From: Polyangium spumosum
GTDB taxonomy: Bacteria > Myxococcota_A > Polyangia > Polyangiales > Polyangiaceae
Assembly: GCF_009649845.1 (NCBI RefSeq)
Contig: NZ_WJIE01000008.1
Coordinates: 310,001 to 374,000 of the forward strand
Reading direction: 5' to 3'
DNA: 64,000 nucleotides
This document shows, piece by piece, positions 22,041 to 63,151 of this stretch. The stretch's first letter is position 1. Each line of letters begins with the position of its first letter. The translations under genes were made by a program, and so were the position numbers. The notes under the pieces are model-generated. The model saw only the letters and a program-made list of their open reading frames with translations, made no database searches and was not told the origin of the DNA.

Positions 22041-22220
22041 CGAGCTCTCCCGATCCTGCCGGATTGTACCGGAAACCACGCGCTCGAGGAAGCTCGTTCC
22101 TCCACGTCTGTCCTTCCTCGTCCTCGCCTGTCAGGAAAAACTTGACGCCGCGGCCCGACTCCTCCGAGCCTATGGGGTCGCTTTCGGCGACCCCGCTCCT
22201 TTCTTTTTGAAGAGGTGGCC
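22041..22220. promoter_or_regulatory. Divergent promoter region between the SIR2 operon and the lipoprotein gene
   Basis: 180 bp without a supported ORF separates two divergent genes, so promoters for both must lie here. No clear -35/-10 pair or operator was recognised. Confidence 0.35.
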
Positions 22221-42712: not shown

Positions 42713-44026
42713 TTAATCTGGATCCACAGCGAACCCGAGCGCCTCGATCAGCCGAGAACACGCAGGACCTTTCGCCCCCTCGCGGAGCTCCGCGAGCACC
42801 CTGACGATGGGCAACGAGATTACCAAAAGCTCCGCCGCGGTGACCGTCTGCGCGTCACGCACCAGCACTCGAGCAGGTGGTTCCAGCTTATCCGTCGAGG
42901 CAGGATGTACGAGCAGCGCCCGTCGGGGACATGGATGCCGACCGTGGCCATAGGCATACAGGAACGCCTGGTAGAGATCACCGGTTTCTACGGCACCCGT
43001 CCCGAGCAACTTGTACTTGGCATCGATCGGCAGCAGCAAGCGCTCGCCGTCCGTTCTCTCGACGACGATGTCGGGGACTACGTTGGCGTACGTACGACTC
43101 TCGTCTCCGTTCCACAGTATAGACCCGTTCGACCGCTGGTAACGGACATGGCATGGGCGCCCGGCCAATAGCTCCTCGACGAGCCGCCACACGAAGCGCT
43201 CGAACAGCCGGTTCATGTCCATCATGAAGGCGAAGGAGCTCGTCTCACCGCCACCGATCACGTCGTCGACGCCCAGTCCCTCGAGGATGATGCGCGACAC
43301 CTCATGGGCGTCTCGATAATGCTCGTTCACGCGGTGGTAGCTCATCCCCTCGAGCAACGTCTTGGAATCTACTCCTTCCGTCGAGCAGACCTCCTTGAAT
43401 ACATCATTTGCATGCCGAACTCGTCGACGGACGTTGGGATGGTCCGCCCGCCGCGCGCACGAGGCGAGCGCCAGCGCGAGAAGTTTGTTCTCCGGGATGT
43501 CCTGGTCGCGCTCGTCGAAGCGGCACTCGACACGATCGACACGCCCGTATCGGCGAAGAATCTGGCGATCCACGAGGATCCGACCACGCACTACGCCGAG
43601 GTCCTCTTCCCGCTCGACGTAATCCGAGAGGATGCCTCGCCGGATCACGTGCTCGGACGCCTCGGCGAGAAGAAGCGCGAACAGGTCGAACAGGTGCGTG
43701 CCAGATGCGTCCAGGGATCCAATACCCGCGGTGCGTCGCAGCGCATCGATGCCCGTCGTGCGCTCGATCATCTCCACGAGTCCGTGATGCCCACCAGCCG
43801 CTTTCGGCACGATATGAAGATCAAACTGCTCGAAGCGGACGAGCCCCACCCACGCGAGCGCCCGGACGCGCACCTTGCCTCGCCACACGTCGATCTCGAG
43901 GCGCCTGTCCGCCCCCTTCGCGAGCGCGTCGGCGAGATCCCAGTCTGCGCGCGAGAGCTCCACGCCGTCGATCTCGCGTGACTCCCACTCCTTGATGGTC
44001 ACCACGCAGTGGGGAGCTCGACTCAT
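42713..44026 (-). CDS. mcrC: McrC-like subunit of McrBC restriction system
   Basis: 437 aa. The start overlaps the McrB stop (ATGA), as is usual for mcrBC. The N-terminus is beta-rich (VTIKEWESREIDGVEL); the centre carries VVRGRILVDRQILRR. The C-terminal PD-(D/E)xK nuclease has VVPDIVVE (~317) and LPIDAKYKLL (~337). In the known system McrC supplies the endonuclease subunit cut-activated by McrB translocation on modified DNA. Confidence 0.92.
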   Translation of the reverse strand: MSRAPHCVVTIKEWESREIDGVELSRADWDLADALAKGADRRLEIDVWRGKVRVRALAWVGLVRFEQFDLHIVPKAAGGHHGLVEMIERTTGIDALRRTAGIGSLDASGTHLFDLFALLLAEASEHVIRRGILSDYVEREEDLGVVRGRILVDRQILRRYGRVDRVECRFDERDQDIPENKLLALALASCARRADHPNVRRRVRHANDVFKEVCSTEGVDSKTLLEGMSYHRVNEHYRDAHEVSRIILEGLGVDDVIGGGETSSFAFMMDMNRLFERFVWRLVEELLAGRPCHVRYQRSNGSILWNGDESRTYANVVPDIVVERTDGERLLLPIDAKYKLLGTGAVETGDLYQAFLYAYGHGRHPCPRRALLVHPASTDKLEPPARVLVRDAQTVTAAELLVISLPIVRVLAELREGAKGPACSRLIEALGFAVDPD

Positions 44027-46167
44027 GCACCGCTCTGCGAGGTCGGCGAGAGCGCGAGCCTCAATGCCTCGATCAGGTCGTCGGCCTTCGACAGGTACTC
44101 GTGATTCAGGGTGCGCGCATCAGGGACGAGCTTGTTGCCGATGTACTTCGCCAGCCTGGAATAGTCATCGTAGCAATACTCTTGCAGCAACGGCAGGATG
44201 TCCTGACGGAATCGTCGAGCGAACACCTCCGGATCGTCGATCGCCCGATCGCCGTCGAGGAGGTAGGCATGGCCGATCTGCTTCTCCCGCCCCTCGTTTG
44301 CCGCGATGCGCCTGTTCAGCTCCTCGAGAAATACATCGAGTGCGAGTCCGTTCACGCTCGTGCCCTGAAGGACCTCGGGCTCCGGCATGCACTCGATGAA
44401 GCCGAACCGGCGCCGCAAGGCGGCGTCGAGCAGCTTGATGCTTCGATCGGCCGTGTTCATCGTGCCCAAGATGTAGACATTCGGCGGGATCGCGAAGCTC
44501 TCCTTGCTCTGGGGCAGCGTGATGGTGAGGCCCCGCTTGTCTTTTTCCAGCAGCGTGATGAGCTCGCCGAAGACCTTTGCGAGGTTGGCCCGGTTGATCT
44601 CGTCGACGAGCACGAGAAACCGCCGGCTCGGCTGTGCCGCGGCGTCGCGGCAGATGCGCTTGAAGACGCCATCTTCGAGCTTCAGGCTGAGCGTTCCGGT
44701 CGACGTGGGCGCGGGGCGGAAGCCTTCGATGAAATCCTCGTAGCTGTACGAGGGATGGAACGTCAGGCGAGTCAGCGGAGCGGACCCTGGCTGCTGCTCG
44801 GCGAGGCGTGGGGCCGCGAGGCGTCCCTCCTCGGCCCGGAAGCGCTCGGCATCCGCGAGCACGAGGTGCGCGTCGGCCGCGCCGCTGTGCTGCAATAGCC
44901 ACCACACTGCGAAACGGCGAGCGAGGTAAGTCTTTCCCGTTCCCGGCGGACCATAAAGAATGACTTGCCCCTTGTGCTCCAGCGCTGCGCTGAGCTCAAG
45001 GAAAGTGTCGTCCACCCGCGGGGGAGGCATGGTCGTCGGCGGCCCGCCCTGTTTGCTGATGATGGTCGTGTAGAGCGCCGGCGGTATCGGGTCGACCGTC
45101 GTCAAGCCCCAGCGCGGCTGCGACGGGATGTCCTTCGCATAACTCGTATCCCATTTGACGCGGACGGTGTGCTTGAACTCGGGGCGCTCCGGTCTCAGCT
45201 CGTAGCCCGGCTCGATCACCTGACCGACCGCCAGGACCTTCGACTGCCCCTTGTTCGCGACCACGATATCGCCGGGCTCGAGCTCCATCAACGTCCAGAG
45301 CTCTTTGGCTTTTTGCGTCAGCTTGCTCTTGTTCCCGTTATAGAGAGAAGAAAAACGCTCGCTGAAGGCAGCGCGGAAGGACTCTTTCGAATCATACTCA
45401 CGCAGGTCGCCGACCTCGTCCCAGCCGACGCAGATGTAGCCCCCCTGCAAACACGCCTCCCAGAACTTCGCTTGCTCTCCGGGGGCGATCTTCACGACCA
45501 TTCGCGACTCCCTCGGGTCGGCCCACGTGTAGAGGAAGCTCCCGATCTCCGTGGTCGTCCAGCCGTCGAAGCGACCTCGTTCGCGCAAGGCTGCGAGCAG
45601 CGCTCGATTCAGGCCGACCGTGCGCAGGTTGCCGTCCTCGGCCTCCGGCCGCCCGAGCAGCCGCAGGAAATGGCGCAGGTGCTCCCTGGAGGCGACGTTG
45701 AGAATCTCTTCGGGGAAGTAGACGTGCAGCGCCTTGCACCGAAGGGCGGCCCCGCCTTCGAGCGCACCGAGCTCGTCAATGGCTTGCCAATCACCCATCT
45801 TCGCCAGCTCGAACGCGCGGACGAAGGCCGCGCGCACCTGCTCCCACGCCTCCTCCTCGTCCCGGTACTTCTCGTCGTGGTACCACCCGAGGCTGCCCTT
45901 GCGCTTGTAGATCAGGTGCTTGCTCGCGTTTCCACCTCGAATGCTTCCGAGGGCCGGCGTCCCCCATTCCATCCACCAGCAAAAGCTTTCTTGAGGTTTT
46001 CCCTGCCCCAGGGCGTAGCGCTCGAGGGGCATCGACGGCCAGCGATCGAGCGGGAAGCGATCGAGCATCGCGGAGCGCTGTTGCCGCACAGCAGCGGCGG
46101 CTTCGCTGGTGGAGGATCGGTGGAAGGAGGAAAGCGCCTCCTCGAGAGACGGGCGGGCAGCGTCCAT
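44023..46167 (-). CDS. mcrB: McrB-like GTPase/AAA subunit with EVE/PUA-like reader
   Basis: 714 aa from ATG 46167. Residues ~1-180 are a variable N-terminus. Residues ~210-360 resemble an EVE/PUA-like base-reading fold (FWEACLQGGYICVGWDEVGDL, then GDIVVANKGQSKVLAVG). The AAA+ part has Walker A LYGPPGTGKT (~407), LVDEINRANLAKVFGEL (~525), and the McrB hallmark GTMNTADRSIKLLDAALRRRF (~570-590). It would recognise modified cytosine or similar bases and translocate DNA using GTP. The start lies 34 bp after the nitrilase-NACHT stop, suggesting co-transcription. Confidence 0.92.
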   Translation of the reverse strand: MDAARPSLEEALSSFHRSSTSEAAAAVRQQRSAMLDRFPLDRWPSMPLERYALGQGKPQESFCWWMEWGTPALGSIRGGNASKHLIYKRKGSLGWYHDEKYRDEEEAWEQVRAAFVRAFELAKMGDWQAIDELGALEGGAALRCKALHVYFPEEILNVASREHLRHFLRLLGRPEAEDGNLRTVGLNRALLAALRERGRFDGWTTTEIGSFLYTWADPRESRMVVKIAPGEQAKFWEACLQGGYICVGWDEVGDLREYDSKESFRAAFSERFSSLYNGNKSKLTQKAKELWTLMELEPGDIVVANKGQSKVLAVGQVIEPGYELRPERPEFKHTVRVKWDTSYAKDIPSQPRWGLTTVDPIPPALYTTIISKQGGPPTTMPPPRVDDTFLELSAALEHKGQVILYGPPGTGKTYLARRFAVWWLLQHSGAADAHLVLADAERFRAEEGRLAAPRLAEQQPGSAPLTRLTFHPSYSYEDFIEGFRPAPTSTGTLSLKLEDGVFKRICRDAAAQPSRRFLVLVDEINRANLAKVFGELITLLEKDKRGLTITLPQSKESFAIPPNVYILGTMNTADRSIKLLDAALRRRFGFIECMPEPEVLQGTSVNGLALDVFLEELNRRIAANEGREKQIGHAYLLDGDRAIDDPEVFARRFRQDILPLLQEYCYDDYSRLAKYIGNKLVPDARTLNHEYLSKADDLIEALRLALSPTSQSGA

Positions 46168-46201: not shown

Positions 46202-49200
46202 TCAAGCCTTCCTGCAATACCCGAGCTGCGCCAATGCTGCCTCGGCGTCGTCACCCGACAGGTCGCCCGCAAGCGCGGCAGTCACCCGTTCGGGCCGATG
46301 AAGCGCTTCTCGGAGCCCGCCCAGCGGGACGTAGAGCCGCGCCCGAGAACCAGGCAGTGGAGCAAATGCGATCCGGAAGTCGTCCGCCGATCCATCCACG
46401 AATTCGCAATATCCGCCGGGCGTGCGCAAGAGCGCTCCGCCCGCGCCTTCCGTGACGGTCACGAGAGGATGGGGGCGACCTGGATCCCAGACGCAGGCCA
46501 CCCCGGCTTCGTCGACGCTCGCGAGGCGGGAGCCGTCGGGGCTCCATTCGAGCAGCCAGACCCGAGCTTCGTGGCTCCGCACGACGCTCTTCACCTCGAG
46601 CGTCTCGCCGTACAGAAACGAGATCCTGCCATCCTCGTGGCCGGCTGCGGCGAATCTTCCTCGTGGTTGGAAGCGGAGGCTCCAGACCTCGCGCAGCCGC
46701 GTTCCTCGACTTCTCGCGTCGCTCCCGGGCGCCCACGCCCACCATTCGTCGTCGTGATCCACGAATAGGATGTCCCCGCCGACCCTGTCCCAATCCCATG
46801 TCCAAACGGTCTTGGCCCGCCGACGCTCGCCCTCCATCGGCGCGTCGTCTCCTCGCCGGAGCAAGGTCAAGCCGAATGGATCGGCGACCGCCAACATCTC
46901 GCCGCTGCTGTCCAGGATCATTCGTGCTGGGGTTCGGTAGCGCTCCCATGGCCAGGAAGCGATCGGCGCCCCCGTCACGGCATCCCAGAGATAGAAACGA
47001 TTGCCAGCCGCCCGAGCTCCTGCCAAGAGCTGATCCTCGTGCCGTATCAGGAGTGGTGCCTGCTCCAGAGCCGGTGACAAAACGCAGGCGGCGCCGAGCG
47101 GCTGGCCGTCGACGTCCCCAATGGCGACGTTCCTGGTTCGTCCCCGACACGCGATACCTCTCGAGGATCGGGCCCAGGAAACGAGATCGAAGGCCCCTCG
47201 TGGCGCCCTCCTCCACGTGGACAATCGTACGCCCCTCTCGTGATCCCAGATCTCCACCGCTGCCCCGAAGGACGCGATCTTCGACTCTTCGTGGGTCCAG
47301 GTCACCCCCGCGGGTCGCTCCGGGCCGGATTCCAAGTCGAAGCGAGAGAGCTCCTGCCGTGCCTCCACGTCCCATACTCGGACGGTGCCGCCGCCGGCGG
47401 AGACCCCAGCGATACGTGCCCCGCTCGGCGAAAAGAACAAGCGCTCGAAGCCGAGCTCGGGCGTGAGCAAAGGGCGAATGACGCGTTTCCTCGACACTTC
47501 CAGGAAATGAAGAAACGAGTCCCCTGCCGAGAAGGCAAGCACGTCGTCGGTCGGGTGGAATGCCATGGATCGAAGAGGAGTCCCCCTCGGATCCGCATGG
47601 AACGTCCACGGCCCTCCCTGCGCAAACGCCCAGACCACCCCGATCCCGCTCGCGTACGAGACCGCGAGGGATCCCCCATTGCGGGAGAACGCCATCTCGA
47701 TCACAGGCGCGTTTATCGAATCGAGCGCCGCGACATCCTCCCCGGAAGACAGGCTTACGACCCGGATGCGCCCATCTTCCTCGGAGACCGCTACCCGTGT
47801 TCCACTCGGGTCGACGGCGATACAGGTAAAGCGCCCGCCGATCGTCTGGAGGGCCTGGAGATCGCGGAGGCGAACCGCTCGCATCGCTCCTTCGGGGTCG
47901 AGCGCGACCACGACATCCGCTGAAGACGCCCAGCGGATGTTGGATTCGTCTTGCGCGGGAAGCGCTGCGGGGAGGTATGCGAGGCAGCGCTGCGTGTGGA
48001 CGTCGAAGACGAAGAGGTCTCCGCGGTGCGTCACCATGGCCAGGCGCCCGCCGTCGGGGCCGAAAGAGACAGACAACAGACGCGCCGGGGCCTCCTTGCT
48101 GGGGACATCGGCGGCAGGCTCGATCCGATCCCATGCGACGTCCGCTGGCGTTGCGCCGGCATCCGCTTCGAGCCCCTCGGAGCCCGGAGCCATCCACGCG
48201 AGCGCGTCCACGCCCTTCAAGGACGCGCCGCCGAAGCGACATCCCACCCACATCGACTGCCGGAGGCACGCGTGATCGAGCCGGGCTCCCTCGAGGGTGG
48301 CTCCAGACGCGGTGACGAGCGTAAAATCGGTTTCTTCGGCCAGCACGCTCCGCAAATTCGCGCTGTCGAGCCGGGCGCCTCGCAAGAGCGCTCCGCGCAG
48401 AGTGGCCCCCTCCAGATTCGCGCCTTCGAGATCGGCGGAGCAGAGGTTCGCCCCATCGAGCTTCGCTGCCACGAGCCGAGCGCTGCGAAGATCTTCGCCC
48501 ACCAGCGATACCCCGCGGAGGCCTGCCTTCTCCGGGATCCAGCCCCCCTTGTCGCCACGGAGCCGCGCGAGCTTCACGAGCAAGCGCACGGCATTCGCTG
48601 CGGCATCCGCGGCCGACGAGGGATCCTGACTACGCGCGGTGCCTCGACCAGCCAGCCAGCGGCGAACGTGATTGACGAATGGCGATCCGAGCAGACCTCG
48701 CTCCCCGACGAGGATCTCGTCAATGAACCCGATCACCTCGCGGGTGAGAGGTTTTACCGAAAGGACTGATGGTAGATCGTGCGGCTCGCTCTCCGCGGCG
48801 TGCACGATGGCAGACGCGAGGAAATATTCTTGAAACGACTTATGCGCGAATCGGAAGCGGTCGCCGGTGTCGGCGGGCTGTCGGACGAGAAACATGCCGC
48901 CCGTCGTCTCGAGTACCTCCGCGGTTCGTGGGACATGGTCGAAGAAGTGCGGAGGGAAGACTTCGTGGAGTAGACGCCGGAGCGTCTCCAGCGCGACACC
49001 AGGCTCTCCGCTCCGCCAGGTTTCAACGGCGATGGTCTCGGCGAGGAGTCGCTTCTGCTCCGTCGTGAAGATCTCCGGCTCCGGGCCGCGCGCCTGCCGG
49101 AGCCAGCGCCGGAGGCAAGCTTCGTAAAGATCGCCGCGGCGCACGACCTGCCCGCCGAGAAGCTCGTTTCGGGTGGCGATGATCATCGCGAGGAGAATGG

Positions 49201-52048
49201 GGCGACGGCATAACTCCTCCAGGTCGTAGGTGGCCTGGATCCGCTCCCAGAGCGCCTCGGCGCTGTCCGGGTCCTCGACCACCGCGACGAGGAGCGCGCG
49301 GACCTGCTCGTCGGAGAAGAAGCGCAGCTCGAACCTGCGCGCCATCGTCGGTCCGCCGAGGGACGCCGTGAGCGCCCGCTCGAGGGCCTTGTGCATTTCG
49401 CCTTCGGTCGGGAAGTAATGGTCCCGCGACGACAGGACGATACGCCCATCATGCTCGGCCGTGTCGAAGATGTCCGTCAGACGCTGCGGCAGCTCGGAGG
49501 CCGTGACGCGGGTCGCCATCTCGTCGAACCCGTCGAAGACCGGGAAAAACCGGCCCGAGCGGATGACGAGGCGGAGGGCCGCGCGATTCTCCGGAGTATC
49601 GGGGAGCCGAGCAGCCTCGAGGAGCTGGGCCCTCGGCGACTTGGCCGAGCTGCCGGCCAGATCGACGAGCAGAGGACGCGGCCCCTCGGGCGCGTCCCAT
49701 AACTCGAGCGCCCATTCGGCGAGCAGCGTGGATTTGCCGGATCCGTACTCGCCGAGGATGATCGCAGCCTTGAGCTCGGGTCCCATCCCGCGCGGACGAG
49801 CGCTGAGCCACCCCGCGAGGGCCGAACGCGCGGGCTCGATCACGGTCTCGCGGCGAGCGGTGCTTCCGTCGTACGAAACGTGCTCGTGCGCGAGGCTTGG
49901 CTCGACGAAGTGCCCATCGACATCCGAGAGGCGTCGCTCCCGAAGCGCGCGTACGGCCTCGCGGGCCCCCTGAAACCGCGCGAGGATCGCCGCGAACCGC
50001 CGCCCGAACGCCTCATCGTCGACGACCTCGAAGCCCTCGATGTCCATTCCCCACTCCTCGAACGCCTCGCGGAGCGGGTCGTGGGAGGCCTCGTCGAGTC
50101 GCGCGGAGTGCCTCTCCTCCGTGGCCTCGGGGTCGTCCTCGAATTCGTCCTCGTCTCCGGGATTCGTTTCAGGGCGACGCCGCAGGATACGATATGTCGG
50201 CTCGTACGTCGCCAACCAGAGCTTCTGGTTGCGCCGAACGAGCAGGAAGATCTTGCCGCCTTTGAACGTGACGCCCGGCCTGCGCCACCTCACCATGCTC
50301 GTGCCGTGCATGATCCAAACAGTCTGAACGACCACGGCTGCCACGGGCTCGTCGCCCTCCGCGGCGAGCAGGTTGGAGAACGCCGTCGCGGAGTGCGCGG
50401 CGTGCATTCTGATGATCCCCATGAGAAACCGGGCTTTCCCGTCTTCGTCCGGCGCATGCTCGCTGCGCGGCAGCTCTGGATCGAATTTGATATACGGGAA
50501 GATCTGAGCCAATTCTCGCTCGGAGATACGCGGCTCGAGGTCCTGCGCCCGGCGCCGGATGATCAGGCTCACGCCGTTCGTCGCGGTCAAGTTTTTTCCG
50601 TAATAATCGGCTGGAGAGGGTTCGCCGTCGACACGGCCACGGACCAACCGTTTCTCCTTCTCGACCTCGGCCTGCGCCTCTTCCACGAGCGTAGGCATTC
50701 GCACGCGCGACGCCTCGTCGAGGAGCTTCGCGACCTTCGCCCCGAGCGCCGGAGTCTGCGCGAGCCAGCGCACCACCACTTCCTTGGTCGCCGTGAGGTG
50801 CGCCGCTCGCAAGATGTCCATCGGCAACACCGTCGGATGCAGGGGAAGCTCACAGGCGAGTTGCGCCACCACTTCGTTGCTCGGGATATACCTCGCGTCC
50901 TCCAGCAATCGATCGAGGCGCTCCTTGCGCGTCGGCGTCGCCGCGTCGCGCACCTGCTCGAGGAGAGCGCGATGCGCGTGGATGTGTCGGAGCGCGTCGT
51001 CGAGCTCGAGACCACTCTCCGGGTCGAGGATCTCGCCGAGCGCGAGGCCCCAATCCGAATACTTCTTTGTGAGCGGCCACGCCTTGTAGACCAGGGTCGC
51101 CGCGGCCTCCGGCCGCACCGGGCGCGTCTTCGCATACCGCGTCGAGCCGCCCGGCCGCTCGTACCCGAGGTCGATCTCCGCGACGAGGAGCCCTTCCTCC
51201 CGGGGCCGCAGGCACCCGGGCTTCTGGGGGTAGGGGAGGAGCTCCGAATGCCGCTCCTCGTCCACGAAGAAGGCCGTCCCCCCGCCGCTCGCGTGGTCGG
51301 CGTAAAGGACCGGCCGGCCATACCGCCTGGCCTCTTCCCACGCCTTGGCCTGAAACTCGGGAATCGAATGTGCGGAGGTCCAGCTCGGCACGGCGAGGAA
51401 GCGGCATGCGGACAGCTTCTTCGCGACGTGCTCCTGGTAGAGAGGGCTCTCGCGATGGAGAAAATCGAGACAGATGAGCACGCCCATGGGGCCGGGAAAC
51501 CCTTCGGGCATCGGGACAGGCGCCCATGCGTCACCGGGCTCGATCTCCTCGTGGACCGCGGCCGCCGGGTGGAGCTTCGGGACGAGCGCGAGAATGCGGC
51601 CGGCGTGAAGGACGGGCGCGACGGCTTGGCCGAGCTTTGGAAGGGTGTCCTTGGTGCAGCCCAGGTCCTCGTACACCCCGCTGTGAAGCCCCTCGCGCTC
51701 GACCCGGTGGGTCCCTGCGACGACGACCATCGGGCCGGCTGTCTGCGCGAGGGGCGCGAGGATGTCCCACGGGACGCTGTACTCCGGCAGGACGACGATC
51801 TTCACCTCCCAGGAGCGGCACGTCTGGAGGATGCTGTCGAGGCGAGCGAGGAGCTGAGCGCAATAGGCTTCTCGAACCCGCAGGCGCAAGTCCTCGAAGC
51901 GACGGCGCACCTCCGGCGGGATGTCGCTGCTCACGGGCAGGAACGGCGTGATGCCGCCGGGATCCTCGAGCGGACTGCGAAACTGCGCGAACAACGCAGG
52001 ATGGTAGTCGAGCTGGACAACGGCGACCCGGACGAACGCGCTCTCCAT
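46202..52048 (-). CDS. Nitrilase-NACHT-pentapeptide-WD40 STAND protein
   Basis: 1948 aa from ATG 52048. Residues 1-~330 are a nitrilase (CN-hydrolase) domain with an apparently complete triad: E89 in VVLPEYS, K158 in VPKLHP, C193 in LICLDF. A ~400-residue linker region follows. The NACHT NTPase has Walker A GEYGSGKST (~769) and Walker B FDGFDEM (~841). Pentapeptide repeats (A(D/N)LxG type) lie at ~1176-1272, then a WD40 propeller to the C-terminus. This is the tripartite plan of STAND immune receptors: effector, switch, sensor. Flanking defence genes support an antiviral role (inference). A nitrilase effector is unusual. Confidence 0.9.
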   Translation of the reverse strand: MESAFVRVAVVQLDYHPALFAQFRSPLEDPGGITPFLPVSSDIPPEVRRRFEDLRLRVREAYCAQLLARLDSILQTCRSWEVKIVVLPEYSVPWDILAPLAQTAGPMVVVAGTHRVEREGLHSGVYEDLGCTKDTLPKLGQAVAPVLHAGRILALVPKLHPAAAVHEEIEPGDAWAPVPMPEGFPGPMGVLICLDFLHRESPLYQEHVAKKLSACRFLAVPSWTSAHSIPEFQAKAWEEARRYGRPVLYADHASGGGTAFFVDEERHSELLPYPQKPGCLRPREEGLLVAEIDLGYERPGGSTRYAKTRPVRPEAAATLVYKAWPLTKKYSDWGLALGEILDPESGLELDDALRHIHAHRALLEQVRDAATPTRKERLDRLLEDARYIPSNEVVAQLACELPLHPTVLPMDILRAAHLTATKEVVVRWLAQTPALGAKVAKLLDEASRVRMPTLVEEAQAEVEKEKRLVRGRVDGEPSPADYYGKNLTATNGVSLIIRRRAQDLEPRISERELAQIFPYIKFDPELPRSEHAPDEDGKARFLMGIIRMHAAHSATAFSNLLAAEGDEPVAAVVVQTVWIMHGTSMVRWRRPGVTFKGGKIFLLVRRNQKLWLATYEPTYRILRRRPETNPGDEDEFEDDPEATEERHSARLDEASHDPLREAFEEWGMDIEGFEVVDDEAFGRRFAAILARFQGAREAVRALRERRLSDVDGHFVEPSLAHEHVSYDGSTARRETVIEPARSALAGWLSARPRGMGPELKAAIILGEYGSGKSTLLAEWALELWDAPEGPRPLLVDLAGSSAKSPRAQLLEAARLPDTPENRAALRLVIRSGRFFPVFDGFDEMATRVTASELPQRLTDIFDTAEHDGRIVLSSRDHYFPTEGEMHKALERALTASLGGPTMARRFELRFFSDEQVRALLVAVVEDPDSAEALWERIQATYDLEELCRRPILLAMIIATRNELLGGQVVRRGDLYEACLRRWLRQARGPEPEIFTTEQKRLLAETIAVETWRSGEPGVALETLRRLLHEVFPPHFFDHVPRTAEVLETTGGMFLVRQPADTGDRFRFAHKSFQEYFLASAIVHAAESEPHDLPSVLSVKPLTREVIGFIDEILVGERGLLGSPFVNHVRRWLAGRGTARSQDPSSAADAAANAVRLLVKLARLRGDKGGWIPEKAGLRGVSLVGEDLRSARLVAAKLDGANLCSADLEGANLEGATLRGALLRGARLDSANLRSVLAEETDFTLVTASGATLEGARLDHACLRQSMWVGCRFGGASLKGVDALAWMAPGSEGLEADAGATPADVAWDRIEPAADVPSKEAPARLLSVSFGPDGGRLAMVTHRGDLFVFDVHTQRCLAYLPAALPAQDESNIRWASSADVVVALDPEGAMRAVRLRDLQALQTIGGRFTCIAVDPSGTRVAVSEEDGRIRVVSLSSGEDVAALDSINAPVIEMAFSRNGGSLAVSYASGIGVVWAFAQGGPWTFHADPRGTPLRSMAFHPTDDVLAFSAGDSFLHFLEVSRKRVIRPLLTPELGFERLFFSPSGARIAGVSAGGGTVRVWDVEARQELSRFDLESGPERPAGVTWTHEESKIASFGAAVEIWDHERGVRLSTWRRAPRGAFDLVSWARSSRGIACRGRTRNVAIGDVDGQPLGAACVLSPALEQAPLLIRHEDQLLAGARAAGNRFYLWDAVTGAPIASWPWERYRTPARMILDSSGEMLAVADPFGLTLLRRGDDAPMEGERRRAKTVWTWDWDRVGGDILFVDHDDEWWAWAPGSDARSRGTRLREVWSLRFQPRGRFAAAGHEDGRISFLYGETLEVKSVVRSHEARVWLLEWSPDGSRLASVDEAGVACVWDPGRPHPLVTVTEGAGGALLRTPGGYCEFVDGSADDFRIAFAPLPGSRARLYVPLGGLREALHRPERVTAALAGDLSGDDAEAALAQLGYCRKA

Positions 52049-52221: not shown

Positions 52222-55200
52222 TCAGCCCTTCGTGGCGAGCGCCTCTTTCACGAGCAGGATGGCCCACCCCGTGTCGATGTACCGCGTCGACCCCTTCGAC
52301 GTGCCCTCCAGGTATCGCTGCCGGTGCACGAGCTCCTCGTCGAGCCGGCGAGGGTCATCGTTCACCTCGGAAAGCGCAGCGAGGACCCACCCGATATCCG
52401 TCAGGGATACCGTGCGCTCCTCGAATCCACCGGGCCCGCCGTCGATACGCAGACCACCTCGCTTCGCAGGCCCGACGATCCGGAAGCGCTTTCCTTCCCG
52501 CTCGACGACGGCTCCGGCTCCCTTCTCGTGGAGGAGATCCTCGACAAGACGACGAGCCCGCTCCTCGATGGATCGAGGGAGCGTGCGAGAAGCCTCGCGA
52601 CCTTCCCCGAGTGCCCGAAACGTCGGAAGATCGATTCCCGCACACGCCCAGGCCCCATCGTCCTCCATGAAACGGGCGACGCCTGCATACCGCCATGCCT
52701 CGGAACCGTCGGCCCGCGTCAGCACGAACGCCGTTTCGCCGGGCCGCCGCTCGATGCCGGGGAACCGGATCCGATCCGGCGCCACGAGCCTGCCTTTTTC
52801 TTCGATGAGCAGGAATAGATGCCCGTCGATCCGGCCGGTTCGCGGAGGCCCCGAGATCCCGAACGCCTCCGCGAGCTTTTCCTCCTCGATGGTCGCTCCG
52901 ACCTCGGGTCCGAGCGCTTCGGGCTTGACCACCTCCACAAGCATCGCGATGGGCACCATGTGGGCCGTGGCGTCGATGGCAGGAAAGGCATGGTTCTCCG
53001 AGCGCAAGACCCACCGCGCGTCATCCTGAACGACGCGCTTGACAAGGTAACTCGCACCGAGCTGAGGATCTTGTACTTCGACCAGCGCGATCTTGCCCTT
53101 GATTCCTTCCCGGGACTGCCCCCGTGCAAACCGCATCACGAGCCAGTCTCCATCACGAATGGGCTCCTTGCCGCCGAACATGGAATCGCCCGTCGCGCGT
53201 ACGGCGAACCAGCCTTCTCCACGCGCCTTCGTCGGCAGCCGGACTTGCTCGCCTTCGGGGGCGAGCGCAATCGGGTTCCGGGCCGCCCCCGCGGCTGCGA
53301 GCAGCGTGGGGAACGCGGGGAGCGTGCCCCGAACGGTGCTCGCCGCAGCGCGTGGCTCTTCCGGTTCCACCCAGAGATCACCCTTGGGAGAACGCGAGAA
53401 ACGAATCCGAAAATTCGTCCCGGGGTGCCCCGCAGCCAGGCCAAACCAGCGCCTCAAAAGATCCGGTAGCTCGTTCCGCTGCGATCCAAGGGGGCGCGCA
53501 ACATTGCAGAACTGCTGCTGGAACGAGAACTGCCACGTAACTCCGTCCGGCAGTCGCACGTCCTGAAAACCGGAGGGAAGGTCGGGCCATTGCTCGCGGG
53601 AGGGGAGCTTCAGGATGGGATCACGCTTGTTCCAGGTGACCTTCGCCGTGAACGAGACACCGGAGACGTAGTCGTTTCGCCGCGCGCGGTACATGGCGAG
53701 CCGGTAGTCGACGATCTCACGCACCATGGCCGAAAGTACTTCTTCCGCGCCTGGGGGGCAGGGGATCCGCGAGACGAACCGGTCCCCTTCCAGTGCGAAG
53801 AATCGCTTGCCCGGCCCGCTCGTCCAGGCGGCAATCGGGTTGATCCGCCAGTACGCGGCGAACCGGCGCATGTCCGGGTCATGTACATCGGGGAAATCGG
53901 TCACGCCTTCCAGATCGCGCAGAAGCTCGGGGGACCGTGCCATGATCATATAGCTTCTTCGCGCGAGCTCGGGAACGGCGAGCCCATCCCGAAGCGCATC
54001 GGCCTCGAGCAATGCCTCCAGGGTCACCATCTTGTAGCATTTGCTCATCCGCGTGTCCTCGAGCTCCCGGAGAAACTCCTCGGCCACGTCGAGCACGCGT
54101 TTCTCGACCTCGTCGAGATCACCCATGGCGGCGACGAAATGGTAGAATCCCCCATACGCGTCCCGTATCTTCTTAAGGCCGTAGCCCATGCGATACAGCT
54201 CGCCAGCGAGGGGCCTTTGCCCCCGGACCTCACGAAGATCGCGATACGCCTGCTCTGCCGGGCTTCCGCCCTGCGGCGGGAGCAACTTTGCCAGAAGCTC
54301 CTTGGCTTCGAGCTCGAGGTCGATGATACAGCCAGGGGCCATCCTCGCGGCCTGCTCGTCCTCCAGGAAGTCGCGCAGGCTCGTGGGCTCCGGGCCGAGC
54401 GAGATCAGCGTGCGTACCCGCTCCAGGAACACCCGGTGATTGCCCACGAAATCGAGGACGACGAGGCGCGTCTTCCCATCGGTGGAGCGAAGGCCCCGGC
54501 CGAGCTGCTGAAGAAAGACGACCGGAGACTCCGTCGGGCGGAGCATCACGACGCGGTCGATGGCCGGAATGTCGATGCCTTCGTTGAAGAGGTCCACGGT
54601 GCAGAGCGCGTCGAGCGTCCCATCGACGATCCCCGCAATGGCACCCTCTCGCGACGCCGAGGTCGGACCCGAATGGACGGCGGCCGCGCGAATGCCCTGC
54701 GCCACGAGGAACGCGCAAGCATGGTCGGCGTGGCGAATGGAGCAACAGAAGACGAGCGTGCGCTTCCCTGCATGCTCCTGCCAGGCGCGGAACATCCGTT
54801 CGATCCGAGCGTCCGTGTCGACGGCTTGCTCCAGCGCCTCGGGATCGAAGCGACGATTGCGGAACGGGATGGCGTTGTAATTCGTATCGTCCTTCAGGCC
54901 GAAGTAGGCGAAGGGCACGAGCAGGCCGCGCTGGATCCCCACGCCGATGTCGGCGCGGTAGGCCACGTGGTCATCGAAGAGCCCCGCCACGTCTGCGCCA
55001 TCGGCTCGTTCCGGGGTGGCTGTGAGTCCAAGGAGAAAGCGTGGCTTCAGCCTATCGATGATGCTCCGGTAACTTGGCGCTGTGCCGTGATGGACTTCGT
55101 CGACGATGACGTAGTCGAACCCATCGGTGGCGAGGCGCGCGAGGTGCTCCGGGCGAGAGAGCTTCTGGATGGACGCGAGGACGAGGTCTCCTTCGAGGTC

Positions 55201-56478
55201 GCCCTTGTCGCCGACGAACCATCCAAAGCGAACGCGTGCATCGCGGAGCTGACGTCGAAAGGTACTTGCTGCTTGCAGGAGCAGCTCTTCTCGGTGAGCG
55301 AGAAGAAGAACGCGGGGGCGTTTGCCGTGTACCTCGCCGAAAGCCGCGACATCGAACGCCGCGAGCCATGTCTTGCCGAGGCCCGTCGCCAGGACACAGA
55401 GCGCGCGATTGCGCCCGGCGGCACGTGACCGTGCGAGGGCGGCCAGAGCTTCCCGCTGGATGGGGTGCGGCTGGGGCGGCGGCGCCTTCGACTCGTCATC
55501 TTCCTCTCCCGGGGGTAGCGTGAAGACAGGCGTCTCTCGGGCCCGCCGTGCATAGTCTGCGACCCAATCGGCCGTGAGCGGAATGGCGGCGGTCCACCAC
55601 TGCTCGTAAGCATCGACGATGGCCTGATACGCAGCTCGGTCACGGTGACGGTCCACGCGAACGTTCCACTCGACGCCCGTGCGCAGCGCGGCATGCGAAA
55701 GATTGCTCGATCCGACGAAAGCTGCGCCGAAGTTAGGGCCCTCGAAACGCCATGACTTGGGGTGGAAGGACCGGACGCCCTCGGGTAAGCGCACCCCTTC
55801 GACGATCCGGGCCTCGAAGCATCCGGGGGACGAGCCATCCGCAGTGATGCGTGCCTCCCAGGTGTCCATCCAGTCACGGAGCTTTGCGAGGGCCTCGCTC
55901 TGGGTGATGTTGAGGTAATCGCCCGTGATGAGTCGGACGCGGGCGCCGCGCGAGAGGGCGCCGGCGACATGGGCCTCGAGCAAGCTGACGCCGCTCTGCT
56001 GAACGAACGCCGCGAGAATGGCGATATCCGTGGCTCGCCGGAAGAGGGGATCGATGTGCCGGAGAAATGGGTCGACCTTGCCGCCACGGGTGAGGGGATC
56101 GGGCCGCTGTTCCAGGTAATTGCCTTTGCCTGGGATGACGTGCCGCACGCCGCCGCGGGGATCGTCGACGTCGCCGCGATAACGAGGGATGACGTGCACG
56201 TGCATGTGCATGACGGTCTGCCCTGCGGCTTCACCTGCATTGATACCGATGTTGTAGCCGTCCGGGGAGAGCTCCGCGTCGATCTTGCGCTTGACCTCGT
56301 CGACGAGCTGGAAGATGGCCGCCTGCTCCTCGGGTGTCGCATCGAACCAGGTCGCGATGAGCCGGCGCGGGATGACGAGGGTGTGACCGGGGCTCACCGG
56401 GTAGAGGTCGGGGACCGCGAACGCGAGGGCGTTGCTTGCGAGCCAGGACGACGATGAAATCTCCAGGAACGGGGACAC
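52222..56478 (-). CDS. HIT-PLD-helicase-S24 fusion protein, copy 2
   Basis: 1418 aa, GTG start, the same length and domain order as copy 1 with most residues identical. HIT with HMHVHVIPR, PLD with FHPKSW/GSSNLS, helicase with ATGLGKT/DEVHHG, S24 with GDSMFGG and LVKRVV are all intact. Differences cluster in the first 20 residues, the linker at ~330 and the region around residue 1060. Conservation of every catalytic motif in both copies argues that both are functional. It is the first gene of a minus-strand run continuing into nitrilase-NACHT (173 bp gap), McrB and McrC. Confidence 0.9.
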   Translation of the reverse strand: MSPFLEISSSSWLASNALAFAVPDLYPVSPGHTLVIPRRLIATWFDATPEEQAAIFQLVDEVKRKIDAELSPDGYNIGINAGEAAGQTVMHMHVHVIPRYRGDVDDPRGGVRHVIPGKGNYLEQRPDPLTRGGKVDPFLRHIDPLFRRATDIAILAAFVQQSGVSLLEAHVAGALSRGARVRLITGDYLNITQSEALAKLRDWMDTWEARITADGSSPGCFEARIVEGVRLPEGVRSFHPKSWRFEGPNFGAAFVGSSNLSHAALRTGVEWNVRVDRHRDRAAYQAIVDAYEQWWTAAIPLTADWVADYARRARETPVFTLPPGEEDDESKAPPPQPHPIQREALAALARSRAAGRNRALCVLATGLGKTWLAAFDVAAFGEVHGKRPRVLLLAHREELLLQAASTFRRQLRDARVRFGWFVGDKGDLEGDLVLASIQKLSRPEHLARLATDGFDYVIVDEVHHGTAPSYRSIIDRLKPRFLLGLTATPERADGADVAGLFDDHVAYRADIGVGIQRGLLVPFAYFGLKDDTNYNAIPFRNRRFDPEALEQAVDTDARIERMFRAWQEHAGKRTLVFCCSIRHADHACAFLVAQGIRAAAVHSGPTSASREGAIAGIVDGTLDALCTVDLFNEGIDIPAIDRVVMLRPTESPVVFLQQLGRGLRSTDGKTRLVVLDFVGNHRVFLERVRTLISLGPEPTSLRDFLEDEQAARMAPGCIIDLELEAKELLAKLLPPQGGSPAEQAYRDLREVRGQRPLAGELYRMGYGLKKIRDAYGGFYHFVAAMGDLDEVEKRVLDVAEEFLRELEDTRMSKCYKMVTLEALLEADALRDGLAVPELARRSYMIMARSPELLRDLEGVTDFPDVHDPDMRRFAAYWRINPIAAWTSGPGKRFFALEGDRFVSRIPCPPGAEEVLSAMVREIVDYRLAMYRARRNDYVSGVSFTAKVTWNKRDPILKLPSREQWPDLPSGFQDVRLPDGVTWQFSFQQQFCNVARPLGSQRNELPDLLRRWFGLAAGHPGTNFRIRFSRSPKGDLWVEPEEPRAAASTVRGTLPAFPTLLAAAGAARNPIALAPEGEQVRLPTKARGEGWFAVRATGDSMFGGKEPIRDGDWLVMRFARGQSREGIKGKIALVEVQDPQLGASYLVKRVVQDDARWVLRSENHAFPAIDATAHMVPIAMLVEVVKPEALGPEVGATIEEEKLAEAFGISGPPRTGRIDGHLFLLIEEKGRLVAPDRIRFPGIERRPGETAFVLTRADGSEAWRYAGVARFMEDDGAWACAGIDLPTFRALGEGREASRTLPRSIEERARRLVEDLLHEKGAGAVVEREGKRFRIVGPAKRGGLRIDGGPGGFEERTVSLTDIGWVLAALSEVNDDPRRLDEELVHRQRYLEGTSKGSTRYIDTGWAILLVKEALATKG

Positions 56479-56685: not shown

Positions 56686-58041
56686 ATGGCGCGGAAGACG
56701 CTCCGGGCAGAGGCAGTCCCCTTCGGCTGGGTGGAGATCTCCGACGCCGCCCTGCAGCGACTCCGTCGCGAGCTGGAGCAGAAGGGGCAAGGGGTGGTGG
56801 ACGAGATGGGCGTGCTCGCGATCCACACCGGGTACGCGGACCACTTCTTTCCGGGCACCTCGGTGCTCCAGACCCGTGCGCGCTACCTCTTTTTCGTATG
56901 CTGGAACTTCCTCTGGCTGGCCCGCCAGCGCGGCATCACGGCGGCGAACCTCGCCAAGCGCAAGGACGAAGCAGATCTTTGGGTGACCCGCAACCTCGTC
57001 GCGACCCAGAAACCGGCCGCATCCCCGGGGGGGACCGGACCCGACATGCAGGGCATCATCGGTGTGAACGTGTTTTACGAGAAACCACCGCGACTCCCAG
57101 CGCAGCGGGTGGACTTCGTCTACTGGACGGCCCTCCGGCGGTGGGGCTTCTACCGCAGCCGTACCGCGTACGATCGCGCGCAGCTGTTCCGTCGCTGGCG
57201 CGGGGCTGCTATCGGTCGGGTTGGCGAGGCCGTGGACGAGGGCCAGGACGACACGATTCGCGCCGAGCGGCTAGCGGAGTTCATGGTTCCGACAGCCCCG
57301 ACCGATTGGCAAAAAGAAGAGTGCAGCGGGCTCACCTTCGAATTGACTGGTCCGGAGGCTCGCTGGCTGCAAGAGCGGCTCCTTTCGCTCGACGAGGTCG
57401 CCGAGGGCCCGCGTCTCCTCGCAAAGGCGGCCGAGCTCTGCGCGCAGACACCACCTCGCATGGACCCCGACGCGCGTCCCTGGGATGATCCGCTCGCCGT
57501 GGAAGCGGCAAGAGCCGCCCGGCAATCCGACCGCCTGGAGCGCGCGCGCCAGGCATCGGCGCTCGCGTACTACGTTCGCGCGATTTACGGGGCGCTCGTC
57601 GAGTGGGTCGTCGAAGTCACCGCCCGAACACACCGCGATGTTCCGCTCCGCCATTACCGTGATCGGCTCGCTGACCTCGCCGGCAACCGCAGTGTGCGTG
57701 ACGCATCCCTCGCGATGTCGCTGCCGGACCTTTATACGGACGTGCCGCGGATCCCCAGCCGCTTGCGCCGCGCCCTGGAGCACGTGCAGGGGGGCCTCCG
57801 CAGGATCGCGCAGGGCGAGGACGCCGAGGCGGTCTTCATGAACGAAGACACGCACCGCCTGTTCGAGGCTGTCGAGCGCGACCGGAAAGGGGCGCGGGCG
57901 CGCCTCACACGCACCGACCAGGGGGCAGCGCGACGGGTGGGATTCGGGCCCGACACCGTCGGCGTGTACGATCTCGACTACCGCTGGGGCCGGGTGCGCT
58001 CTCTGCTGTGGGATCTCCACCGGGGCCTCGCACGCCCATGA
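56686..58041 (+). CDS. DUF6361-like protein, first gene of helicase operon
   Basis: 451 aa from ATG 56686. The start pattern FGWVEISDAALQRLR, then HFFPGTSVLQTRARYLFFV, matches the DUF6361 group (WVDFSE..., FPGTSTIQTRARYFLF). No catalytic motif is evident. The rest is helical, with Trp/Arg-rich segments. It overlaps the PLD gene by ATGA. Members are seen beside PLD and helicase genes in defence islands; the role within the complex is unknown. Confidence 0.82.
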   Translation: MARKTLRAEAVPFGWVEISDAALQRLRRELEQKGQGVVDEMGVLAIHTGYADHFFPGTSVLQTRARYLFFVCWNFLWLARQRGITAANLAKRKDEADLWVTRNLVATQKPAASPGGTGPDMQGIIGVNVFYEKPPRLPAQRVDFVYWTALRRWGFYRSRTAYDRAQLFRRWRGAAIGRVGEAVDEGQDDTIRAERLAEFMVPTAPTDWQKEECSGLTFELTGPEARWLQERLLSLDEVAEGPRLLAKAAELCAQTPPRMDPDARPWDDPLAVEAARAARQSDRLERARQASALAYYVRAIYGALVEWVVEVTARTHRDVPLRHYRDRLADLAGNRSVRDASLAMSLPDLYTDVPRIPSRLRRALEHVQGGLRRIAQGEDAEAVFMNEDTHRLFEAVERDRKGARARLTRTDQGAARRVGFGPDTVGVYDLDYRWGRVRSLLWDLHRGLARP

Positions 58042-59831
58042 ATCAGCCTACGCTCGGTTTGCTCGAGAAGCTGCGGCCTCCGTCGGGGTTCCGAACGGAA
58101 GCTGCGCTCGGCGCTACCTACTCCGCCGACCTCCTGACCTGCATGGCCGTCCTGACGACCCTGGACGGCGGTGAGGGCGAGCGGGTTCAATATGGCCGCG
58201 TCGAGGCTTTCCGTGCCCTCGATCGCCTTCGCGACAAGGTCCGCATCTGCCATCAGGCGGGCCGCGTGAGCCGCCGTGACGGCTCGAAATACCCCTCCCT
58301 GGCGCTGCTCGACCGGGTGCTCGTGCCCATCCGGGTCCCCGGGCGCGGCTCGTTCCATCCGAAGGTGTGGATCGTACGTCAGGTGGACGGAGAGGGCCAC
58401 GAGCGGTTTGTCCTCATCGTCAGCTCCCGCAATATCACCACCTCGACCGACTGGGACCTCGGCATTGTCATCGAGGGGATGCTGGGAGGAGCTGGCAAGG
58501 CGCTGCCACGGGTCAGGGAATTCGCCCAGCATGCGCTAACACTCGCTGGCGAGCCCGCGCGGATCGAGACGTTCGGCAAGCTGGACGACGTACGGTGGAC
58601 AGTGACACCGCCTATCAAGGAGATGGCGTTCGACTTCCAGAAGGGGGGCGAGGTGCCACAGCAGCTCCATCCCGCGTGGAGCGGCTTCGACGCGCGACCT
58701 TCACGCGTGCTGCTGCTCTCACCGTTCATCGACGCTCGTATGGTCGGCGAGGCTGCGAAGCGCTGGAGCAGCGCGCCGAAGCGGAGGCTCGTCGCGGGCC
58801 CAGAGGGGCTCCTGTGCGTCGCGCTCGGGCCCAAGTGCGAGGCGCTCCGGGCGCTCGAGCCGCGCCAGATCGTCGCCGCGCCCGAGGCGCCCGAGCCCGC
58901 GGAAGACGAGACCGGCGCCGAAAGTGAGGATGAGATCGAGCATGTGCGCGCCCTCCACGCCAAGGTGATCGCCATCGATGACGGCCGGCGCGGCACGGTC
59001 ATTCTCGGCAGCAACAACCTGACGGGTCCGGGCTGGTGCGGCGGCAGCACCGAGGCATTCGTGCGCCTCGTCGGGCCGGCGGCGCTCTGCGATCCGTTGT
59101 GGGATTGGGCCACCGCGGAGGCGCAAGACTTCGACTTTCCGGCGCCGGGCACGCCGCCACCTGAGCCGCCGATCCTCGAAAAGGTCAAGGACGAACTGCA
59201 TGCCGTGTCATTCCGGCTGGAGGAGGCCGGCGCGCATGCGCCTTCCCGTCTGGTGATGCTCGATCCCCCGGCGCTCGAGCTCCCGGACGGTATTCGCATG
59301 GAAGTCGCGCGTTACACGATGCCGGGCCAGGCGACGCTTTTTCCGACAGGCGCGAGCACCGTGACGCTCCCCGGCTGTACGACCGCGCTGAGGACACGCT
59401 TCATTGTCTGTACCCTTCGCCAGGGTGACGAGAAAACGTCCTGGATCGCAGCGGCCGATCTGGAGCCGCCCGTCGACGAGGAGAGGGACCGCGCCCTCGT
59501 CGCGCGGCTCCTCGGGGTCCGCGAGTTTCTCGCCTATCTCCAATCCCTCCGCGCCGACGAGGCCATTACGGGGAGCGTCGAGGGCGCGCTCGAGGGCGAC
59601 GCGCCGGAGGAGACGCAGCAGCACGGGCGCGCGGCGCTCGACGGGGGCGTACACCTCGAGGAGCTTTTACGTCAGCTCGTCAAGGCGCCCGACGCGTTCG
59701 ATGAGATGGACCGCGCCGTCCAGCGGTACGGCGAGCTGATCAAGCGCGGCCAGATCCCCGAGGACGAGCGCGTGCTGCTCTCTCGGTTCCTCGAAGCCTG
59801 GGCAGCCATCCGCGAGGCATTCCGGCCATGA
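58038..59831 (+). CDS. Phospholipase D-like nuclease
   Basis: 597 aa. The ATG at 58038 overlaps the previous stop. Two HKD half-sites: SFHPKVWIV with SSRNIT at ~105-135, and ALHAKVIAID with LGSNNLT at ~306-325. This is the paired HxK...N pattern of the PLD superfamily. It would act as the nuclease of the operon. An acidic linker (~285-300) separates the halves, and the C-terminal ~170 residues are helical and unassigned. It is coupled to the helicase by another ATGA overlap. Confidence 0.88.
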   Translation: MNQPTLGLLEKLRPPSGFRTEAALGATYSADLLTCMAVLTTLDGGEGERVQYGRVEAFRALDRLRDKVRICHQAGRVSRRDGSKYPSLALLDRVLVPIRVPGRGSFHPKVWIVRQVDGEGHERFVLIVSSRNITTSTDWDLGIVIEGMLGGAGKALPRVREFAQHALTLAGEPARIETFGKLDDVRWTVTPPIKEMAFDFQKGGEVPQQLHPAWSGFDARPSRVLLLSPFIDARMVGEAAKRWSSAPKRRLVAGPEGLLCVALGPKCEALRALEPRQIVAAPEAPEPAEDETGAESEDEIEHVRALHAKVIAIDDGRRGTVILGSNNLTGPGWCGGSTEAFVRLVGPAALCDPLWDWATAEAQDFDFPAPGTPPPEPPILEKVKDELHAVSFRLEEAGAHAPSRLVMLDPPALELPDGIRMEVARYTMPGQATLFPTGASTVTLPGCTTALRTRFIVCTLRQGDEKTSWIAAADLEPPVDEERDRALVARLLGVREFLAYLQSLRADEAITGSVEGALEGDAPEETQQHGRAALDGGVHLEELLRQLVKAPDAFDEMDRAVQRYGELIKRGQIPEDERVLLSRFLEAWAAIREAFRP

Positions 59832-62800: not shown

Positions 62801-63151
62801 CCGGTGGAGGGCAGCCCTTGGCTCGCCCTTTCGCGCTCCCTTCCGGAAACGTGCGAGGGCATGGCGCCTTGGTGGGGCACGGAGGGGGCGGTCATCCGCC
62901 GGAGCGTCTTCCTCCCGCCGCTCGCCCGACAGGAGGGCGAGCTCGATCGCCTCCTCGCCAGCCTGTCGCATTATCGCCTCGCGCTCGGCCAGTCCGATCC
63001 GGAGCAACTTCTCCGGGCGCTCCACCGTCGGCTCGAGGGCGCCGGCACGGAGGAGGCGCGCGCCGCCCTCCATGCCTGGCTGCGGGAAGCGCAGATCGAC
63101 CTCGCGCCCGTTCGCCGGGGCCCGCCGCCCGAGGAGGGGCCGCTCTCATAG
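59828..63151 (+). CDS. SNF2-type superfamily 2 helicase of the defence operon
   Basis: 1107 aa. The ATG at 59828 overlaps the PLD stop. Motif I is VADEVGLGKT (~38-47), motif II is ILDEFQRF (~250), and motif III is LLLSATPYRP (~314). After a long insertion, the second RecA lobe carries VLATTSIGQEGLDFH (~930) and LEQRDGRINRYG (~962). The DEVGLGKT and QRDGR(I/A)xR forms are those of SNF2/RapA-like translocases as in DISARM DrmD-like proteins. It would move along DNA and present it to the PLD partner (inference). The 3' end overlaps the convergent AIPR gene by 6 bp. Confidence 0.9.
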   Translation: MTTSPSSQKGRKPFQEATVRHAVARLRDPAGSRRFLVADEVGLGKTLVAQGILQHLATGPRPLNVFYVCSSLTIANQNRDSLLEVLPESERKTASVNVDRPTLLPWTNPPASNRFTLCTLTPGTLPIKGSSRGRVDERASIWCLLREGLPHAGERELEALEEKLKLVQDPTWRTAVDPRSSGPMLQRMRDLAAPFLTEVRTLLRLPGANDRAVAKALLHRFDDDLYGTVQALRKRLGRLGLQKLRPDLVILDEFQRFFEILEPFRGTADDATQPPPPTEDEAPADTDEDEDANGLLRLLLDARGEEAGPAILLLSATPYRPPAGGIDGAGLGHYEQFFRLLEFLHGAQAKIEVPALRTLFRRYGTLLREASPGETEVLQLRDDIQDRLFRVIARTERAGLLGADARSTAPERRPVGLHADDVRIYRHLWASASEEDQSAVTPYWSSIPYPLQMMDQGYLLQKRARPAPLVASSERTLLLRARQVRRYEDLAPPHPRMRTLLDEVGGPLLGLPWLPPSLPWWPLDGRFREAADQASRTGGLSKVLLFSRFRAVPRAVASLLSYESERRVYAEARDRGRSYDYNARRRGGRDEEGTPEPDLEALPAPSFNWQSRQRETGERDLDHALLSLFIPAPRLGEIGDPQRIAGFARGDLRRSDAIEAVLAELQRCLAGQGSEVRVRQGGRPGQAWRALICLERRHEPTWPLFREALEGWADQTKNQVAKAVVRTWLREAQTAGALGREPISITENDLEELAELALVGPGVVLHRASKRVFGSACDARLRMRRSVDIALGALRTYLDEPEFHLTLAVRGRATLNHPDNVRKAIWHGNFEAVLDEYFAIHAGLGAQHIDPGRERKALDALEQALAIRVSSIQAKSLEGTDAPAFRLRCHAAMPFGLSPEKEERSDDDRPETRPDALRQAYNSPFRPFVLATTSIGQEGLDFHVYCDRLVHWDLPSSPVDLEQRDGRINRYGGLAIRKVLARPYAEHVAPIPVEGSPWLALSRSLPETCEGMAPWWGTEGAVIRRSVFLPPLARQEGELDRLLASLSHYRLALGQSDPEQLLRALHRRLEGAGTEEARAALHAWLREAQIDLAPVRRGPPPEEGPLS

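Follow-up and report, generated by a model that had tools for sequence, protein, structure and literature searches.

A predicted nitrilase-superfamily domain in the effector position of a NACHT-WD40 protein from a Polyangium spumosum defence island

Introduction

Could a nitrilase serve as the effector of a bacterial NLR-like immune receptor? The question is raised by one gene in the window, a 64,000-nucleotide stretch of the Polyangium spumosum genome (contig NZ_WJIE01000008.1, positions 310,001 to 374,000). A first-pass annotation, made from the sequence alone, had read this gene as a STAND receptor with a nitrilase effector. We examined the domains of the protein, their conservation among homologues, the domains that occupy the same position in related NACHT proteins, and the genomic neighbourhood.

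Results

Domain layout of the window protein

The gene encodes, as the first-pass annotation had proposed, a single 1948-aa protein with nitrilase, NACHT, pentapeptide and WD40 regions, a layout borne out in one frame by Pfam, a structure model and profile matches (Table 1). Pfam recognised the pentapeptide repeats (E 1e-14) and the WD40 repeats (E 3e-15), and among the best 25 of 37 matches at E<=1 it recognised no enzyme domain besides the NTPase. The protein thus has the tripartite layout of an N-terminal effector-type domain, a central NTPase and C-terminal repeats.

Table 1. Coordinates of the nitrilase-NACHT gene, its domains, its neighbours and genes associated with its homologues. Positions without a prefix refer to the window; residues are those of the window protein.
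Feature	Position	Strand	Basis or remark
Nitrilase-NACHT-pentapeptide-WD40 gene	46202..52048	-	1948 aa; frame unbroken from ATG at 52048 to stop at 46202; same start position in homologues
Nitrilase-fold domain, residues 1-305	51134..52048	-	AlphaFold2 models and PDB comparison, Z ~20
Catalytic E89 (predicted)	51782..51784	-	kept in 19/19
Catalytic K158 (predicted)	51575..51577	-	kept in 18/19
Catalytic nucleophile C193 (predicted)	51470..51472	-	kept in 17/19
Helical extension, residues 306-430	50759..51133	-	conserved alongside nitrilase in NACHT and non-NACHT relatives
Fast-evolving linker, residues 431-735	49844..50758	-	no NA-iREase3 resemblance found
NACHT NTPase and following helical/winged-helix region, residues 736-1165	48554..49843	-	Pfam (sub-threshold), profile matches
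Walker A GEYGSGKS, residues 766-773	49730..49753	-	
Walker B VFDGFDE, residues 837-843	49520..49540	-	
Pentapeptide repeats, residues ~1170-1290	48179..48541	-	Pfam
WD40 propeller region, residues ~1312-1866, presumed sensor	46451..48115	-	Pfam
Upstream neighbour: HIT-PLD-ResIII helicase-S24 protein, type IV restriction-like	52222..56478	-	
Downstream neighbour: McrB-like AAA_5 protein	44023..46167	-	first ATG 34 nt past the stop
McrC (PF10117)	42713..44026	-	
ZacA-ZacB-ZacC defence system	56686..63151	+	
Downstream partner genes of AAA-tailed members	L019:11513-13459, L024:14010-16067, L029:16571-18526		mutually homologous
NACHT-free nitrilase-module proteins, ~2300 aa	L022:3382-11456, L054:5523-13402		342-aa gene follows each

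The nitrilase domain and its active site

In a comparison of an AlphaFold2 model of residues 1-740 with the PDB, residues 1-305 matched nitrilases and amidases with Z scores of 19-20. The alignments of this predicted model to many nitrilase-superfamily members at Z of about 20 span 215-230 residues, and Foldseek on predicted models agreed with the nitrilase fold (probability 1.00). A separate model of residues 1-433 (pLDDT 79.6, pTM 0.86) again gave nitrilase-type matches. For residues 306-740 there was no solved-structure match among the matches listed, a list filled by one domain, which does not imply novelty.

The glutamate, lysine and cysteine named by the first-pass annotation are present in the translation at E89 (in LPEYS), K158 (in VPKLH) and C193 (in ICLDF). 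That annotation would have given up its reading if homologues consistently lacked this triad; it is complete in 17 of 19 aligned sequences, the exceptions being L024, without the lysine and cysteine, and L056, without the cysteine. The active-site loops of the model are partly of low confidence, and candidates for the second glutamate of the superfamily's catalytic tetrad would lie near E167/E168, beside one such loop.

Sequence profiles recognise the domain poorly. CN_hydrolase was absent among the best 25 of 37 Pfam matches (E<=1) of the whole protein and remained unmatched at E<=1 when residues 1-433 were scanned alone; across the family its profile matched three of seven members, with a best E of 0.014, below confidence. 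The fold and triad being present, we attribute this miss to likely divergence. A single-sequence search of PDB chains gave no match for the nitrilase region, and a family profile of the region reached NitA in the PDB (E 8e-4). The PADLOC matches to the domain were all weak and were to defence models, namely RT_UG29 (residues 4-179, within the nitrilase), CARF-nitrilase and UG5-nitrilase. No reverse transcriptase family appeared among the best 25 of 37 Pfam matches (E<=1) of the window protein. Searched across the class, the RT_UG29 model matched the common domain at its front and hence yielded no comparison nitrilases, and a model search of the class found no CARF-nitrilase. Together the structure model and the triad confirm residues 1-305 as a predicted nitrilase-superfamily domain despite the Pfam miss.

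The NACHT domain and the linker

The Pfam NACHT match of the window protein is sub-threshold, at 18.8 bits against a cut-off of 26.7. The protein has a Walker A motif, GEYGSGKS, and its VFDGFDE fits the NACHT-type Walker B pattern (hhhDGFDE). Profile A5, built on the NACHT region, found as its best solved relatives 5irl (E 3.4e-8) and NLRC4 (E 5.5e-6). We take 5irl to be rabbit NOD2, although the record itself is titled 'uncharacterized protein'. At the level of sequence, these Walker motifs and the NOD2/NLRC4 profile matches confirm the assignment of residues 736-1165 to NACHT. We also considered the linker as an NA-iREase3 domain, which precedes NACHT in relatives, and this was unsupported (hhalign probability 0.1).

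Distribution and architectures of the homologues

The genome of P. spumosum holds one copy of the nitrilase-NACHT gene. Searches with the single protein matched 8 of 379 genomes of the phylum, the window's own included, and a profile matched 15 of 318 genomes of the class. An alignment query scanned against contigs of about 85,000 species returned eight loci, unlike a single-protein query, which found no related loci. All organism-named loci of the scan are from Myxococcota (Polyangium fumosum, Enhygromyxa salina, Archangium violaceum, Hyalangium versicolor and MAGs), and absence elsewhere is weak evidence because short peptide patterns underlie the scan. Plasmid, phage and IMG/VR collections contained no relatives at the sensitivity used.

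A nitrilase and a NACHT Walker A occur together in ten proteins, the window's included. The first-pass annotation had proposed a search for homologues of the same domain order, and the nine other proteins, all from Myxococcota, share the nitrilase-NACHT order; given this recurrence, the fusion is not due to chance. Four of the relatives (L020, L021, L023 and L028) are cut by contig ends and have incomplete C-termini. The Polyangium relatives L018 and L025 bear an extra C-terminal SIR2, assigned by Pfam in L018; L025 aligns to L018, and its C-terminus matches a separate SIR2 gene of the window. The product of that window gene (20418-22079) resembles ThsA of Thoeris in addition to matching the SIR2 tail of these Polyangium relatives. 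In P. fumosum the full gene is followed immediately downstream by a second, broken copy of the nitrilase start (L025:16538-17301).

In L019, L029 and L024 the extra C-terminal module is a P-loop AAA, and a partner gene lies downstream. A calcineurin-like phosphoesterase domain was found in the partners of L024 and L029, to which the L019 partner is homologous. L024, with its triad lysine and cysteine lost, retains NACHT and has no WD40 match. Near-identical WD40 arrays of 126-bp repeats occur in L020 (17422-18718; 10.3 copies, 95%) and L029 (13739-15175; 11.4 copies, 90%); the window gene has no such repeats, its WD40 repeats being degenerate.

A second group (L022, L051, L053, L054 and the cut L052) carries the module of residues 1-430 on an unrelated, NACHT-free body of about 1900 aa that has no Walker A. 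The 342-aa gene that follows the L022 protein is ParA/CbiA-like, and the L022 protein itself has no Pfam matches. The NACHT-free protein and its 342-aa companion possibly form a second type of system. L055-L058 are further divergent members.

The effector position and selection on the nitrilase

Ten distant NACHT relatives found with profile A5 (L085-L094) carry diverse N-terminal domains. These are CHAT in L085, from the window's own genome, and L086; TIR in L087 and L090; a nucleoside-phosphorylase superfamily domain in L088, L092 and L093 and, more weakly, in L089 and L094; and a calcineurin-like phosphoesterase in L091. NA-iREase3 precedes NACHT in nine of the ten. CHAT and TIR count among the recognised types of effector (PMC10907252), and bNACHT proteins carry their effector N-terminally (PMC12169576). 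Because the effectors of these related proteins are N-terminal, the nitrilase occupies what is, by comparison, the predicted effector position, which supports the STAND receptor with a nitrilase effector put forward in the first-pass annotation.

Across six pairwise comparisons the nitrilase was the most conserved domain in four, tied for first in L020/L029 and was behind NACHT in L028/L029, with dN/dS of 0.25-0.34, and the linker was the least conserved region or among the least. Judged by these comparisons, the nitrilase is under purifying selection. Between L018:3985-10518 and L025:10001-16537, nucleotide identity is about 98% at the nitrilase end, 61-74% in the WD40 region and 92% at the SIR2 end. 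Either the enzyme ends have been kept while the sensor diverged, or the middle may have been exchanged by recombination.

Genomic neighbourhood

The window gene sits in a defence island of type IV restriction-like genes, McrBC and Zac, and not in a metabolic operon away from defence genes, a location that the first-pass annotation had held would count against it. GC content is 66.2% over 33.8-63.2 kb, against 69.6% over the first 31 kb of the window. Two 1418-aa HIT-PLD-helicase-S24 proteins (33833-38089 and 52222-56478), 87% identical and on the same strand, lie about 14 kb apart; recombination between this pair could involve the intervening island. Defence genes were also found near L025 (PDC-S48), L022 (an SNF2 helicase of DpdE/ZorD type) and L053 (Septu PtuA). 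Among the neighbours tested of L018, L020, L023, L028 and L057, none was recognised as a known defence gene.

Discussion

We consider it probable that the product of the window gene is an immune receptor of the bacterial NLR-like (STAND/NACHT) kind whose effector belongs to the nitrilase superfamily, and in which a sensor would trigger oligomerisation and the active nitrilase would attack an amide metabolite. The predicted fold of residues 1-305, the conservation of the triad, the NACHT identity, the recurring architecture, the effector position and the defence-island context support this reading. From these we infer the trigger, activation by oligomerisation, catalysis, abortive infection and an antiphage function as follows. 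The WD40/pentapeptide C-terminus would sense an invader protein or the damage it causes. NTP-bound NACHT domains would then oligomerise, and their ring would gather the N-terminal nitrilases into the multimer usually needed for nitrilase activity, with the conserved helical extension, placed where a lid or an oligomer interface would lie, perhaps serving as one of these. Nitrilases generally need homo-oligomers, and the DRT1 nitrilase is gated by its oligomer state and a C-terminal lid (PMC13275509). Finally, the C193-K158-E89 site would hydrolyse the amide (or nitrile) of an essential metabolite or yield a toxic product, and growth would stop or the cell would die before the phage spreads.

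The substrate can only be guessed at, as NAD+/nicotinamide or another amide. NAD+/nicotinamide would be the first candidate because SIR2 co-occurs in two relatives and because 5ny7, an amidase structure among the matches to the nitrilase model, is nicotinamide-bound. SIR2 domains in defence are typically NAD+ consumers. The nitrilase need not be the sole effector, since some relatives bear extra C-terminal enzymes (SIR2, AAA).

It could be asked whether the nitrilase is an effector at all, or instead a structural or ligand-binding domain with a sensory or regulatory role, the effector lying in the linker, in a partner gene or in the SIR2 or AAA of relatives. L024 would fit such a role, having lost the triad and retained NACHT along with a C-terminal AAA and an AAA-phosphoesterase partner gene, as would the SIR2 of L018 and L025. 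However, 17 of 19 sequences, among them every NACHT member except L024, retain the triad, the domain appears to be under purifying selection, and Pfam recognises no other enzyme besides the NTPase in the window protein; we regard this role as improbable. We give very little credence to an amidase with a metabolic or regulatory function, under NACHT control and unrelated to conflict. The nitrilase superfamily is mostly metabolic, but the defence-island location, the patchy presence (8 of 379 genomes of the phylum by single protein, 15 of 318 of the class by profile) and the swapping of effectors among NACHT relatives all argue against it.

In a multicellular soil predator, the same machine might instead serve to recognise kin or non-self, or to bring about programmed death. 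In Podospora, the NACHT-WD40 receptors het-d/het-e act in allorecognition and have WD40 repeats with high internal conservation (PMC12222747, PMC2873952). HET-D/HET-E resemble the present family in their NACHT-WD40 order and in the highly similar WD40 repeats of some relatives, the near-identical arrays of L020 and L029, but they have another N-terminal domain and act in fungal allorecognition rather than in a bacterial defence-island context. The finding of the family in Myxococcota only, among the genomes and contigs scanned, and the Polyangium orthologues L018 and L025, conserved at both ends and divergent in the middle, would also suit such a role. Against it stand the degenerate WD40 repeats of the window copy and its location amid restriction, McrBC and Zac genes; we hold allorecognition to be unlikely, though the strongest of these alternatives to an antiphage receptor.

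In the open-access literature searched, with subscription papers outside its scope, we found no published nitrilase-STAND protein. The part of the first-pass annotation that named the nitrilase as effector is supported, with the qualification that phage defence already includes nitrilase effectors: the DRT1 nitrilase mutation C1116A abolishes immunity (PMC13275509), and the UG5 RT-nitrilase is validated in phage defence (PMC9122126). The novelty lies in pairing a known class of receptor with an effector new to it, nitrilase effectors being already known from class 3 DRTs (DRT1, UG5). Those proteins share a nitrilase domain with the window protein, and DRT models are among its PADLOC matches, but their nitrilase is C-terminal and controlled by a reverse transcriptase and DNA adducts, whereas here it is N-terminal, with NACHT and with no RT found. 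bNACHT25 (PMC12169576) likewise has an N-terminal effector, a central NACHT and a C-terminal sensor, but combines a PD-(D/E)XK nuclease with an NCH1 C-terminus in place of the nitrilase and pentapeptide-WD40. A further comparison is with bacterial Swarozyc and the TEP1/NWD-type DUF4062-NACHT-WD40 proteins (PMC13174449, a preprint). In TEP1 a metabolite-hydrolysing domain likewise precedes NACHT and WD40, at the position of the APAF-1 CARD; DUF4062 is a TIR-like NADase, in contrast to the predicted nitrilase here.

More tentatively, and with somewhat more doubt than belief, we suggest that the nitrilase and its helical extension form a portable effector of a myxobacterial conflict-system family. 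Its carriers would be NACHT-WD40 receptors and, separately, a large protein that lacks NACHT and has a ParA-like NTPase as its partner. The module would halt infected cells by an amide hydrolysis new to immunity.

The authors of the DRT1 study describe nitrilases as uncommon in antiphage defence and the substrate of their nitrilase as unknown (PMC13275509). A second, independently controlled nitrilase family would offer a further way of finding that substrate, since its presumed activating domain, NACHT, differs and is easily mutated. If our reading is true, amide or nitrile hydrolysis would add a chemically distinct effector to bacterial NLR-like receptors. It would also extend the parallel with APAF-1/TEP1-type receptors, in which the executioner or its recruiter occupies the slot before the NTPase.
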